Below are positions 19,738-39,480 of a stretch of 64,000 nt of DNA, in pieces (within the stretch, counting starts at the first letter, position 1; every line of letters begins with the position of its first letter). The position numbers were made by a program, and so were the translations under genes. Location of the stretch: NCBI GenBank assembly GCA_016209735.1, contig JACQVN010000062.1, positions 1 through 64,000 on the forward strand. Direction: 5' to 3'. The notes under the pieces were generated by a model. The model had not been told where the DNA came from and searched no databases. It saw only the letters and a list, made by a program, of their open reading frames with translations. This DNA comes from Candidatus Methylomirabilota bacterium (GTDB taxonomy: Bacteria > Methylomirabilota > Methylomirabilia > Methylomirabilales > 2-02-FULL-66-22).

Positions 19738-19754
19738 GCCCCGGGGACGGCTTG

Positions 19755-20280
19755 AACCGCCAAGACGCCAAGGACGCCAAGGGATTCCTTTCACAGAACG
19801 ACGGGGGCCGAGTGAAGTGGCAAGATACCAATTGGCCCAAAATTCTGGGGGGACTGCATGGAAGAGCCCGGTGACAGCTTGGATCGCTTGGCTCGTGAGG
19901 TCATTGCGGCCGCCATCGAGGTGCATCGAGAGCTCGGTCCAGGATTCCTTGAGAGTGTGTACGGGCAGGCCTTGGCTGTGGAGCTCAAGCTGCGAGGGAT
20001 TCCCTTCGAAGAACAGAAACCTTTTTCGCTGACTTACAAGGATCATAAGATCGGCGAAGGACGCCTGGATTTCCTCGTTGATGGGCGGCTTGTGGTCGAA
20101 CAGAAAGCAGTGGAAGCGTTGGCCCCGATCCACGAGGCGCAGATGATCTCGTATCTCAAGGCCACCGGCCACCGGCTGGGCCTGCTAATCAATTTCAACG
20201 TTTCGGTTCTCAAATCGGGTCTTCAGCGTATCGTTCTCTCTTGAGAAGTTTTCCTTGGCGTCCTTGGCGTCTTGGTGGTT
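19755..20280. mobile_element. Candidate cassette: GxxExxY gene bounded by 28-bp near-perfect inverted repeats
   Basis: Left aaccgccaagacgccaaggacgccaagg (19755-19782); right ccttggcgtccttggcgtcttggtggtt (20253-20280), reverse complement 27/28 identical. Confidence 0.65.
19858..20244 (+). CDS. GxxExxY protein (PDDEXK_3-like nuclease fold)
   Basis: AIEVHRELGPGFLESVYGQALAVELKLRGI; RLDFLVDGRLVVEQKAV (D..ExK). Confidence 0.93.
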   Translation: MEEPGDSLDRLAREVIAAAIEVHRELGPGFLESVYGQALAVELKLRGIPFEEQKPFSLTYKDHKIGEGRLDFLVDGRLVVEQKAVEALAPIHEAQMISYLKATGHRLGLLINFNVSVLKSGLQRIVLS

Positions 20281-20305
20281 CGATTCTGGTCTTGTCGGGG
20301 TGAAC

Positions 20306-30713: not shown

Positions 30714-30835
30714 GGGGTTACCCGTGATCCGCACTCCCCACACCTGTCCTGGCCTGATTCCCTCGCACCGCTGGTGACCCACGGCCCGCTCGCCGTCTGC
30801 CCGTTGGCGGTGTCTTCACTCTTTTTCGGTAAGCG

Positions 30836-30985
30836 TTCAGCGGTCAGCCGCCAGCTTTCAGCGAAACAAGAGCACAGACAGAGGACATCACGCTGTCCGG
30901 ACGATGCTATCGGTGAAGCTTATGACGTTCTCGTATTTGCGTATTCGACTGATCGCTGATCGCTGACAGCTGACCGCTTGCCTGT
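30836..30985. repeat. 7-nt-period foldback array, unit AGCGGTC / CGCTGAT
   Basis: agcgttc agcggtc agccgcc agctttc agcg ... gactgat cgctgat cgctgac agctgac cgc. Confidence 0.7.
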
Positions 30986-32563: not shown

Positions 32564-32838
32564 AATAGCTCATGGCTCATAGCTCATAGTTCATGGGGGA
32601 CCCGCCATGAGCCATCAGCCATGAGCCGCGGGATACGGCAGGGGAGCGGGGGAGCAGGGGGCTGAGGGGCAGACCATGGACGATGGACCGTTGACCATAG
32701 ACCAGAGAAGAGACGGAAATGCGGGGGCAGAGAGGCAAAGGAGCAGGGGAGCGAAGCCTTCGGCCCCGTACAGCCGTACAGCCGTACCGTCGTACTGCCG
32801 AACCCCCAAACCGTGAACCGTGAACCTTGAACCGCGCC
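32564..32838. repeat. Mosaic arrays between trpE and trpG
   Basis: agctcat ggctcat agctcat agttcat ... catgagc catcagc catgagc; gggagcgg gggagcag; gtacagcc gtacagcc gtaccgtc; gaaccgt gaaccgt gaacctt gaacc. Confidence 0.85.
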
Positions 32839-33508: not shown

Positions 33509-34552
33509 ATGATCGTGGAGATTATTCGGAAGCTGGCGGATCGTCAAGACCTGACCCGAGACGAGGCCTTCGCCGCCATGGACGCCATCATGTCGGGCCA
33601 GGCCACGGACGCCCAGATCGCCGCCTTCCTCACCGCCCTCAGGATGAAGGGGGAGACGGTGGAGGAGCTGATCGGCTTCGCCCGGGTGATGCGCGAGAAG
33701 GTCTCGCCGGTCAAGACCCGCCACCGGGTGCAAACCTCGCTGTCGGGGACGGACCGCGAGATGCTGGTGGACACCTGCGGCACCGGCGGCGACGCCACCG
33801 GCACGTTCAACGTCTCCACGGCCACGGCCTTCGTGGTGGCGGGGGCCGGCATCCCGGTGGCCAAGCACGGCAACCGCTCGGTGAGCAGCCTGTGCGGCAG
33901 CGCGGATGTGGTGGAGGCGCTGGGGGTCCGCCTGGACCTTCCGCCGGAGCGGGTGGGCAGATGTATCGACGAGGTGGGGATCGGGTTCTGCTACGCCCCG
34001 CTCCTGCACAAGGCGATGAAGTTCGTCATGCTGGCGCGGCGGGAGATCCGGATGCGGACCGTCTTCAACATCCTGGGACCCCTCACCAATCCGGCCCGCG
34101 CCTCGGCGCAGGTGATCGGGGTCTACGACGGGGCCCTCACGGAGATCATGGCCCAGGTGCTCAAGGAGCTGGGAACCGTGCGGGCTTTTGTGGTGCACGG
34201 CGAGGACGGCCTGGACGAACTCTCCACCACCTGTGAGAGCCGGGTCGCCGAGCTGAAGGACGGCTGGATGCGGACGTACACGATTCGCCCCGAAGACTTC
34301 GGCCTGGCCCGCGCGTGCATGGCGGACCTTCGGGGGGGCAGCGCCGCCGATAACGCCGAGATCATCCGGCGGATCCTGAGCGGAGAGAAGGGCCCCAAGC
34401 GCGATATTGTGCTCTTGAATGCCGGCGCCGCCATTGCCGCAGGCGGCAAGGCCGAGAGCCTGGGCGACGGCGTTCGGCTGGCCGAGCAATCCATCGACGG
34501 CGGGGCGGCCCGGGCCAAACTGGAACAGTTGGTGGCGTTCTGTCAGAGCTGA
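33509..34552 (+). CDS. trpD: Anthranilate phosphoribosyltransferase
   Basis: DTCGTGGDATGTFNVSTATAFVVAGAGIPVAKHGNRSVSSLCGSADVVEALG. Confidence 0.97.
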   Translation: MIVEIIRKLADRQDLTRDEAFAAMDAIMSGQATDAQIAAFLTALRMKGETVEELIGFARVMREKVSPVKTRHRVQTSLSGTDREMLVDTCGTGGDATGTFNVSTATAFVVAGAGIPVAKHGNRSVSSLCGSADVVEALGVRLDLPPERVGRCIDEVGIGFCYAPLLHKAMKFVMLARREIRMRTVFNILGPLTNPARASAQVIGVYDGALTEIMAQVLKELGTVRAFVVHGEDGLDELSTTCESRVAELKDGWMRTYTIRPEDFGLARACMADLRGGSAADNAEIIRRILSGEKGPKRDIVLLNAGAAIAAGGKAESLGDGVRLAEQSIDGGAARAKLEQLVAFCQS

Positions 34553-34558
34553 CAGGAC

Positions 34559-34972
34559 GTTCGAAGGTTCGAGGGTTCGCAAGTTCGAGAGTTCGGCGGT
34601 ACGACAGTACGACAGTACGGCGGTACGAGGGTACGACAGTACGAGGGTACGAGGGTACGGCGGTACGAGAGTACAGGAGCGGCACAGGGCACAGGGCACA
34701 GGGCAGAGCCGGAAGGGGCAGGGTCGCAGCGCCACAGAGGTAAGAGCCACAGAACCTCAGGGCGGCAGAGGGCAGAGAACAGTTGAAAATCCCGCGCCCT
34801 CGAACCATTCCAATACCGCCGCACTATCGAACTCTCGAATCCCCGACCGCTCCTGTGCCGTGGTACCGTCGTACTGCCGTACTGTCGTACTTCCGAACCC
34901 GTGAACCTTCGAACCCGTGCACCCGTGAACCTTCGAATCCCCGAACCCGGGAACTCTCGAACCCTTGCGCTG
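34559..34972. repeat. About 415-bp foldback mosaic between trpD and trpC
   Basis: Left arm gttcgaag gttcgagg gttcgcaa gttcgaga gttcg + cggtacga cagtacga cagtacgg; right arm gtaccgtc gtactgcc gtactgtc gtacttcc + gaacccgt gaaccttc gaacccgt. Confidence 0.9.
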
Positions 34973-34974
34973 CG

Positions 34975-35826
34975 ATGAGTATCCTTGATACGATCCTTGA
35001 ACGCACTCGGGCAGATCTGATCGACAGGATGGCGCGGCTGCCGCTGGTCGAGCTTCGGGCGCGCTGCCGGGATCTGCCCCCCACGCGGGACTTCCTGGGC
35101 GCCGTGCGGCGGGAGCCGGAGGCGGCGGCTCGACGGAAGGGGCCGCTCCGGGTGATCGCCGAGGTGAAGAAGGCTTCGCCCTCGCGGGGCGTCATCCGGG
35201 GGGATTTCCAGCCTGCGTCGATCGCGGCCGATTACGCGGCGGCGGGCGCCGGCGCCATTTCCGTTCTCACGGATGCCCCGTTCTTTCAGGGGGGCCTAGC
35301 GGACCTGGCAGCCGTACGACAGGCGGTGGGGCTTCCGATCCTGCGCAAGGACTTTCACGTTGACCCCTACCAACTCTGGGAGGCGCGGGCGGCCGGCGCG
35401 GACGCCGTCCTCCTGATCGCGGCTGCCCTGGCGCAGGAAGAGATCCAGAATCTCCTCGGCCTGGCCGCCGAGCTTGGGCTGCATGCACTGGTCGAAGTCC
35501 ACGGCCGGGACGAACTGGGGTCGGCCCTCGCCTGCGACGCCAAGATCCTCGGGATCAACAACCGGGATCTCAGAACGTTCCAGGTGACGCTGCAGACGAC
35601 CTTCGACCTTTTGCCCCTGGTCCCGGCCGATCGCGTGCTCATCAGCGAGAGCGGGGTGGCCACCGCCCTGGACGCGCGCCGTCTGGAGGGGGCGGGCGTG
35701 GATGGGATCCTGGTGGGCGAGGGATTGCTCAGGCATGCGGATGTGGGGGCGGCCCTGCGAGAGCTTGTCGCGTTGCCGGGAGAACGGGGAACAAGTGAAA
35801 AGTCAAAACCGACAACCGACAAGTGA
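34975..35826 (+). CDS. trpC: Indole-3-glycerol phosphate synthase
   Basis: VIAEVKKASPSRGVIRGDF; ISVLTDAPFFQG; ISESGVAT; C-terminus runs into repeat array. Confidence 0.95.
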   Translation: MSILDTILERTRADLIDRMARLPLVELRARCRDLPPTRDFLGAVRREPEAAARRKGPLRVIAEVKKASPSRGVIRGDFQPASIAADYAAAGAGAISVLTDAPFFQGGLADLAAVRQAVGLPILRKDFHVDPYQLWEARAAGADAVLLIAAALAQEEIQNLLGLAAELGLHALVEVHGRDELGSALACDAKILGINNRDLRTFQVTLQTTFDLLPLVPADRVLISESGVATALDARRLEGAGVDGILVGEGLLRHADVGAALRELVALPGERGTSEKSKPTTDK

Positions 35827-35942
35827 AAAGTGAGAAGCGACAACCGACGAGTGAAAAGTGAAAATTGACATCCGAATGCGAAACCGATAATCGAAAACGG
35901 CCTCCCTTTTTCAATTTTGACTTGTCGGTTGTCGGTTTTACC
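35792..35942. repeat. 7-nt-period foldback array, unit ANYGACA/AGTGAAA
   Basis: accgaca accgaca agtgaaa agtgaga agcgaca accgacg agtgaaa agtgaaa attgaca ... ttgacttgtcggttgtcggtttt. Confidence 0.85.
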
Positions 35943-35966
35943 TTTGAAATTGAGCCGTGAGGCGTC

Positions 35967-37800: not shown

Positions 37801-37948
37801 ACCGCCAAGACGCCAAGATCGCCAAGGAGAACAGATTTCTTATTTCGGAACGAAGATCGGGAAGCCCACCGCGTGGGGCCTTCAGATTCTGGGCTCCGAC
37901 GCGGGTATCTACCGCTCCATCCTTGGTGTCCTTGGCGCCTTGGCGGTT
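37800..37948. mobile_element. MITE-like 149-bp segment with CGCCAAGGA inverted repeats, no gene
   Basis: aaccgccaagacgccaagatcgccaagg ... ccttggtgtccttggcgccttggcggtt; arms match 24/28; first base is the last base of the trpB stop codon. Confidence 0.6.
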
Positions 37949-38948: not shown

Positions 38949-39104
38949 CCGCTCACCCTTCGACTGGCTCAGGGTGAGCGGGCTGACCTCTGACAAGGTT
39001 TGGGCCTGCGGCGCCAGCTTCGGCCGGGTCCGGGTAAGCGAGCGGAGATGTGTCACGCGCCCCCAGTCCCTTCCGCTCACCCTGAGCCCGTCGAAGGGTG
39101 AGCG
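38949..39104. repeat. Two REP-like palindromes (CCGCTCACCCTTCGAC..GAGCC..GGGTGAGCGG)
   Basis: ccgctcacccttcgactggctcagggtgagcgg and ccgctcaccctgagcccgtcgaagggtgagcg. Confidence 0.85.
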
Positions 39105-39145
39105 TGTAAGGGGATCGGGCCCCATCTCAGGCGCCACCCACTGAT

Positions 39146-39475
39146 ATGACTTTCTGGGTGTACATGCTCGAATGTGCTGATGGCTCCTTCTATGTGGGGC
39201 ACACTGACAATCTTGAAGAACGCCTCCAGCAGCATCAGTCTGGAGCGTTGGGCGGCTACACCCGAAACCGCCGCCCCGTGCGCCTGGCGTATTCTCAGGA
39301 CTTTCCGACGCGTGGCGAGGCCTTTGTCGGGGAACGCCAGATCAAAGGTTGGGCTCGCAGCAAAAAGAATGCGCTCATGCGGGGGGACTGGGAAGCGTTG
39401 CGGCGGCTAGCGCGGGGTCGCCGCCGGGGGCCCGCTCACCCTTCGCCCCTTCGACAAGCTCAGGGCTCAGGGTGA
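39146..39475 (+). CDS. GIY-YIG nuclease family protein
   Basis: WVYMLECADGSFYVGHTDNLEERLQQHQSG; RQIKGWARSKKNALMRGDW; tail GPAHPSPLRQAQGSG is repeat-encoded. Confidence 0.93.
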   Translation: MTFWVYMLECADGSFYVGHTDNLEERLQQHQSGALGGYTRNRRPVRLAYSQDFPTRGEAFVGERQIKGWARSKKNALMRGDWEALRRLARGRRRGPAHPSPLRQAQGSG

Positions 39476-39480
39476 GCGGG
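39431..39480. repeat. REP-like palindrome overlapping GIY-YIG 3' end
   Basis: cccgctcacccttcgccccttcgacaagctcagggctcagggtgagcggg. Confidence 0.85.

Follow-up and report, generated by a model that had tools for sequence, protein, structure and literature searches.

The trp operon in the 64,000-nucleotide stretch analysed here (hereafter the window), from a genome of the NC10 bacteria (Methylomirabilota), carries between trpD and trpC a series of short-word arrays whose families return as their reverse complements further downstream. The question raised by this locus is whether such a foldback serves the trp pathway, as a structured part of its mRNA, or is one of many similar units that happen to lie in this operon. 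The window lies inside contig C54 of a metagenome assembly (1.69 Mb, 69% complete), and its trpD shares 85–87% identity with that of named NC10 assemblies. Gene calling relied on a custom-built model applied to metagenome-assembled contigs, and all compared genomes are likewise metagenome assemblies, in which repeats may be misassembled.

Layout and predicted fold of the trpD-trpC foldback

Direct reading showed the mirrored word-array foldback between trpD and trpC to be real (Table 1), and its arrays were also recovered by Tandem Repeats Finder. The order of octamers and heptamers described in an earlier sequence-only reading was thereby borne out. The mirror symmetry claimed in the same reading held for the word families but not unit by unit: the left arm has 5+10 words and the right arm 9+4, and permuting the right-arm octamers within their families gave an equally good or better fold in 92.5% of the trials. 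Likewise, the GCACAGG heptamers form an array on the left, but the right side has only a single CCTGTGCC.

Table 1 Features of the trp operon and of a gene-bearing foldback in the window
Feature	Position	Strand	Basis
Foldback with CGCCAAGGA word arms around a GxxExxY gene	19754-20281	.	
GxxExxY / PDDEXK_3 gene in the loop of the CGCCAAGGA foldback	19858-20244	+	
Foldback 5' of trpE, TCAGCGG / GCTGATC words	30833-30977 (arms 30833-30863, 30946-30977)	.	
trpE-trpG spacer, ATRGCTC / GAGCCAT foldback (32565-32627) and further word arrays	32565-32804	.	
trpD, upstream neighbour of the foldback	33509-34552	+	
Left arm, outer block: five GTTCGRNN octamers	34559-34598	+	Direct reading, Tandem Repeats Finder, repeat search
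Left arm, inner block: ten GTACGRNN-type octamers, the last being GTACAGGA	34599-34678	+	Direct reading, Tandem Repeats Finder
Array of GGCACAG heptamers, lacking a mirrored counterpart array	34681-34705	+	Direct reading, Tandem Repeats Finder
Loop/core with degraded word remnants (CGAAC, TACCG, CCTGTGCC)	34706-34862	.	Direct reading, folding, repeat search
Right arm, inner block: four GTACYGYC-type octamers (GTACCGTC, GTACTGCC, GTACTGTC, GTACTTCC), reverse complement of GTACGRNN	34863-34894	-	
Right arm, outer block: nine GAACCYNN-type octamers, reverse complement of GTTCGRNN	34895-34966	-	
trpC, downstream neighbour of the foldback	34975-35826	+	
trpC-trpF foldback, AACCGACA and AAGTGAA words	35793-35945	.	
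trpB-trpA foldback, CGCCAAGA words	37801-37948	.	

A repeat search in the trpD-trpC gap returned arms at 34560-34642 and 34855-34937 (83 nt, 77% complementary). The hairpin alignment score of the gap was 71 as compared to a maximum of 22 among 20 dinucleotide shuffles (z 20.6), which ranks second among 276 sampled intergenic gaps, and the minimum free energy of the corresponding RNA was −195.8 kcal/mol, with shuffles at −154.0 ± 5.4 (z −7.8). The predicted fold comprises 139 pairs, 111 of them between the two halves, so a transcript hairpin of more than 100 bp is possible, as had been proposed, and it would lie between two co-directional genes of one pathway. A search for intrinsic terminators (GC-rich stem followed by a T-run) gave no site between 34553 and 34974, and the reading of the foldback as such a terminator was therefore rejected. 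The Rfam scan of the window gave no family at the gathering threshold.

Several open reading frames run across the arrays (34419-34904, 34783-35826 and others) and translate into repetitive peptides (EPSNPRT, SYRRTVV, VRRYDST); an open frame through the arrays would lengthen trpC by 64 codons. These array-spanning frames are probably annotation artefacts, and repetitive peptides of the EPSNPRT- and SYRRT-like kind are easily annotated as hypothetical proteins.

Dispersal in the genome and in the trp operon

The trpD-trpC foldback is not specific to trp but is one of many dispersed copies. When used as a BLAST query, it matched 87 places in its own genome. In a census covering 428 kb of the genome's contigs (gaps of at least 30 bp, a foldback being scored at z above 5), 57 of the 276 sampled intergenic gaps were foldbacks, a count that takes in some other palindromes, including those of a MITE-like TTTGGTTTTTGCGC family; together the foldback gaps make up 27% of the sampled intergenic bases. 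Autocorrelation in these foldback gaps peaked at 7, 8 and 14 nt. The words of the genome's foldbacks include AACCGACA with GTGAAAA, GACCATG, GTCCCATRG, AATTGCG, CACGGAGG, CACGAAGG and CGCCAAGA, among others. Within the trp operon of the window, four further foldbacks were found, each with its own word set (Table 1), and words of the GTACGR family also occur in the trpE-trpG spacer (32766-32804).

Architecture, polarity and placement of the compact element

Each of the seven genomes of the genus contained triple arrays of GTTCG words (25–297 hits; reversed control 0), which were essentially absent among 34 other NC10 genomes, and GTACG arrays were abundant in G000 and G001 only. The compact form in two of the relatives (G005 and G002) comprises four to five GTTCGRNN units, a loop (mostly 2, 10, 11 or 19 nt) and then the inverse, with arms of exactly 4+4 units in 20 of 37 compact elements. 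The GTTCGRNN word shows an invariance of at least 97% at positions 1–5, has a purine at position 6 and is free at positions 7–8. The compact elements are bounded by symmetric AAAAGC...GCTTTT ends, beyond which the composition is random. The trpD-trpC copy is longer than this 4+4 form. Adjacent units within an arm are identical at positions 6–8 in 28 cases, as compared to 15.8 by chance, a likeness which indicates that arms grow by unit duplication.

The order of a word followed by its reverse complement is nearly fixed, with ratios of 16:0 (G005), 9:0 (G002) and 14:3 (G001), the three exceptions sitting between neighbouring tandem copies. As palindromes copied whole retain their order, this polarity speaks for dispersal as units and against independent local inversions.

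At co-directional junctions, the elements are closer to the stop of the upstream gene than to the start of the downstream gene in 19 of 23 cases in the window's genome and 18 of 22 in the relatives, at a median of about 12 nt. A true stop-codon preference was rejected, since the bias is seen in short gaps and is absent in long ones (5 of 10); the proximity to the stop may simply arise because the next ribosome-binding site needs space. The AAAAGC...GCTTTT ends of the compact relatives may act as bidirectional terminators, although the copies are mostly found at co-directional junctions.

Complementarity of the arms

Position 8 was complementary in only 16 of 137 in-register octamer pairs of the compact elements, as compared to 33.6 expected (P 0.0002), and in this first set not one of the 137 pairs was fully complementary (7.8 expected). 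The avoidance at position 8 is limited to the true register and is seen in both genomes individually (G005, P 0.004; G002, P 0.03); a small held-out set pointed in the same direction (14 vs 19.1 expected, P 0.09). The real elements were furthermore predicted to fold more weakly than those obtained by exchanging right units between loci (−41.6 vs −44.6, all 60 permutations). For the compact copies, this speaks against selection towards the most stable RNA hairpin. The avoidance of complementarity is not universal, as other word families, among them GACCATG in the window's genome, have long perfect arms.

The same junction in relatives and other phyla

Comparison of the junction in relatives, which the sequence-only reading had suggested as a check, showed a trpD-trpC foldback in four of the five same-genus genomes having this junction. 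The words are GTTCGG in three of them (L011, L012, L013) and GTCGA in the fourth (L009); in L010, belonging to genome G006, the gap is 14 bp and the foldback is absent. The trpE-trpG spacer contains GTTCGG octamers in L009 and L011 and GAGCCG heptamers in L012 and L013. In other phyla, AGTGAAC heptamers were found at trpD-trpC of a Desulfobacterales genome, and comparable foldbacks at loci of Acidobacteria, Nitrospirae and Poribacteria, including a TAACTGA-like one in a Poribacteria locus; the examples from this cross-phylum census of trp loci are few but clear. The notion that trpD-trpC is a hot spot beyond mere permissiveness was rejected: a single inherited element accounts for three of the relatives, which leaves few independent cases. 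G006 was the sole same-genus genome with compact trp spacers; it also has the fewest GTTCG arrays, and a PDDEXK_3 gene is absent from it.

Gain, loss and re-occupation of sites

Orthologous sites were located in five relatives for most of 28 elements of G005. A single clean empty site was found, where the flanks in G001 join directly after a TGA stop and G005 has an element; the duplication at this insertion site is at best 3 bp (TGA). Where both orthologous sites carried GTTCG words, the outcome was mostly bimodal, with 6 comparisons unchanged, 13 replaced and 6 intermediate. The unchanged pairs differed at 0% of the core positions and 9% of the free dinucleotide, and the replaced pairs at 4.7% and 71.5%, respectively, the latter being near random at a flank identity of 74–94%. 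Fixed cores combined with randomised free positions cannot be reached by point mutation, so either the units turn over or the sites are re-used. Orthologous sites in other species hold another word family or lack an element. For one orthologous site, a conversion in place of GTTCG words into GTACG words was also considered and rejected, as the left arms were similar but the right arms were not, which fits replacement better.

Genes enclosed by foldbacks

Long foldbacks were found to enclose small genes. One in the window has a GxxExxY gene in its loop (Table 1), and another in the same genome (C61:18772-19361), built of GTTCGG and GTACGG words like the trpD-trpC foldback, encloses a PF05635 gene (S23p/23S_rRNA_IVP); the trpD-trpC copy itself has no S23p ORF. 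When 304 short genes were compared for the strength of the inverted repeats around them, the top three were precisely the PDDEXK_3 genes. In the relatives (score of at least 32, orientation-free bounds), genes for the S23p/IVP four-helix bundle (PF05635) lay within inverted flanks in 36 of 52 cases and PD-(D/E)XK genes of the GxxExxY type (PF13366, PDDEXK_3) in 16 of 19, as compared to 5 of 315 controls (P ~1e-31 and ~1e-20, respectively), P values which overstate independence because some of the sister-species loci are orthologous. Small GIY-YIG genes were enclosed in 5 of 12 cases. The three families were picked after one example each, and nearly all the test loci are other genes. The association of S23p and GxxExxY genes with inverted word arrays is a new link; a literature search, mostly of journals open without subscription, returned no paper on GxxExxY elements, and to our knowledge no mobilising activity has been demonstrated for either S23p or GxxExxY proteins.

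The S23p gene on C160 of G005 is enclosed by GTTCGG words, the dialect of that genome. Word matches to S23p flanks were obtained for four trp junctions and to GxxExxY flanks for trpB-trpA, but the matching to S23p flanks is not exclusive, as words are shared among many foldbacks that lack an ORF. G006 has no GxxExxY gene, yet 25 GTTCG hits occur there. PF05635 is also present in genomes without GTTCG arrays, and the link is thus to the architecture and not to one word. The loop gene of the CGCCAAGGA foldback in the window has intact catalytic-looking PD-(D/E)XK residues (LDFLVDGRLVVEQKA) and an intact GxxExxY motif (GPGFLESVY).

Comparison with known systems

The nearest published architecture is that of the intervening sequences (IVSs) of 23S rRNA. 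In Coxiella burnetii, the IVS has a terminal inverted-repeat stem whose loop holds an S23p ORF, with tandem GACAGAT heptamers beside the ORF whose copy number varies between strains; it is excised by RNase III and has been called a selfish element, and its S23p protein is apparently not made in vivo (PMC4990558). The class described here likewise has an inverted-repeat stem around an S23p (PF05635) ORF. IVSs lie inside 23S rRNA, whereas the present elements, the trpD-trpC copy included, lie between protein genes, many being ORF-less and having imperfect word arrays as arms.

Inverted octamer pairs have their nearest description in Geobacter metallireducens, where, according to the cited part of that report, Gmet_I1 to I3 comprise four tandem GTTGCTYN octamers, three TCTCCGTS units or five heptamers, paired on opposite strands at variable distance (Aklujkar 2009, PMC2700814). 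One such paired site lies beside trpB2 and another between proBA, at a place that holds a different repeat in G. sulfurreducens, and the same part offers a reading as IHF/HU or global-regulator sites as a hypothesis only. The compact elements share with them about four octamers per site and the placement on opposite strands, but the word sequences differ, and a loop gene is not reported in the part of the Geobacter paper cited here.

Similar to REP/REPIN sequences and their RAYTs (PMC2817692, PMC3116915, PMC12306157), the elements are dispersed extragenic inverted hairpin pairs, and they also resemble them in their species-specific dialects and in behaving as non-autonomous mobile units. In contrast to REPs, however, their arms are tandem octamers, and they end in AAAAGC/GCTTTT, in place of a GTAG-type head beside a short, imperfect palindrome. 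Compensatory changes are seen in REPIN hairpins (PMC3116915), whereas complementarity at the free position is avoided here. RAYT mobilisation was rejected: five Y1 genes from G005 and the window's genome are present, and their 450-bp flanks contained no word arrays. With the RAYT link, the GTAG head and the compensatory changes all lacking, the elements were not filed as REPs; the trpD-trpC foldback is filed as IVS/REPIN-like, and is neither a REP nor an rRNA IVS. Cyanobacterial STRRs are grouped with the TAACTGA heptamers as intergenic 7-mer tandem words. The TAACTGA repeats of Beggiatoaceae and Cyanobacteria are likewise intergenic 7-mer tandem words common to several phyla, occurring almost only as direct repeats upstream of starts, with one inverted case (MacGregor 2015, PMC4679880). 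Borg elements (PMC9879509) also have rapidly evolving tandem repeats between and within genes; these, on the other hand, are head-to-tail and perfect, and show no inverted pairing.

Interpretation and alternatives

The trpD-trpC foldback probably belongs, as a copy lacking an ORF, to a dispersed, IVS/REPIN-like class of insertion elements bounded by hairpins. Computed evidence supports this assignment through class membership (architecture and words), gain and loss, re-occupation of sites, dialects, polarity and the enrichment of S23p and GxxExxY genes. In this class, the arms are tandem runs of 7–9-nt words in inverted order, almost always the word and then its reverse complement. Some copies carry a small loop gene, mainly S23p/IVP (PF05635) or GxxExxY (PF13366). 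In the mechanism we propose, the gene-less ones have spread among the spacers between cistrons, places at which an insertion leaves coding sequence intact, and they are gained, lost and replaced between species. The trpD-trpC copy was probably lengthened in the window's species by unit duplication. Mobility may come from the proteins encoded in the loops or from a host factor that reads the words, with the constant word core as the putative recognised part and the free dinucleotide as a spacer. The structure in the trp mRNA would be a tolerated imperfect hairpin, perhaps processed like the 23S rRNA intervening sequences, rather than a dedicated trp regulator.

That the foldback is instead a functional intercistronic RNA hairpin, tuning decay, processing or polarity of the trp mRNA or ribosomes at the trpD stop, as in proposals for REPs in E. 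coli, appears rather unlikely. The strong predicted folding of the gap, the recurrence of trpD-trpC foldbacks in four of five relatives and in the Desulfobacterales genome, and the stop-proximal position at co-directional junctions are in its favour, given that ribosomes can stall at REPs located no more than 15 nt from a stop (PMC12306157); the 3' preference is nevertheless lost in long gaps, exact complementarity of the arms is avoided, and one relative does without the element. The sequence-only reading had gone further in stating that the hairpin should affect RNA stability or polarity, and in that form the claim found no support: a terminator-like site is absent from the junction, the element belongs to a dispersed class present at many unrelated junctions, a species of the same genus has a 14-bp gap in its place, and the arms of compact elements in relatives pair worse than random re-pairing, whereas selection for a stable hairpin would have had the reverse outcome. 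The trpD-trpC foldback may still act on its RNA. Paired sites for a DNA-binding protein, such as a nucleoid protein or global regulator, would account for the invariant core, for the free positions 7–8 as uncontacted spacer and for the missing full complementarity, the hairpin then being incidental, and the Geobacter octamer pairs have been read likewise in the cited part of that report (PMC2700814). We nonetheless consider this quite improbable, as the words vary by species and locus and are unrelated at orthologous sites, unlike a fixed regulon, and gains and losses of elements occur between flanks of high identity. A neutral origin, in which slippage during replication and switches of template between short words with palindromic cores build mirrored arrays in non-coding DNA with neither mobility nor function, is favoured by the likeness of adjacent units at positions 6–8, which unit duplication predicts; it does not predict the fixed polarity, defined ends or standard four-unit arms, nor the dispersal of one species dialect to many loci or the enclosed gene families, and is hardly credible.

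Beyond the assignment of the trp copy to an IVS/REPIN-like class, a broader proposal can be made only tentatively, and we lean towards doubt: that a widespread, unnamed mobile class exists in which inverted arrays of 7–9-nt words are the ends, a small protein from the loop (S23p four-helix bundle, GxxExxY PD-(D/E)XK nuclease or small GIY-YIG nuclease) acts as cognate factor and evolves together with the word dialect, and copies lacking an ORF, such as that at trpD-trpC, spread in trans. Such a class would include rRNA IVSs, the Geobacter octamers and the TAACTGA/STRR repeats. If the link to the loop genes is true, two orphan families, S23p and GxxExxY, gain a testable context, and rRNA intervening sequences become connected with a far larger set of intergenic elements. 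As regards the trp operon, the question moves from regulation of a single pathway to the tolerance of operons for hairpin insertions.

Other palindromic sequences

A small GIY-YIG gene (39146-39475; PF01541 match 39152-39367) lies in the window region 38950-39480 amid CTCACCCTTCGAC...GCTCAGGGTGAG palindromes at 38950-38980, 39074-39104 and 39431-39480. A second palindrome (GGGACCCACGGCACCGCGG...CCGCGGTGCCGTGGGTCCC) is inserted within the arms of GTTCG foldbacks at L011, L012, L224, L227, G005:C253 (~31883) and G005:C1 (~10052), and orthologous copies without it show that it replaced a few bases. The separate MITE-like family, with ends TTTGGTTTTTGCGC...GCGCAAAAACCA and a length of ~230–300 bp, occupies several intergenic gaps and was found in the window's genome on C55 at 21838, 27388, 45867, 63867, 151523 and 176486.
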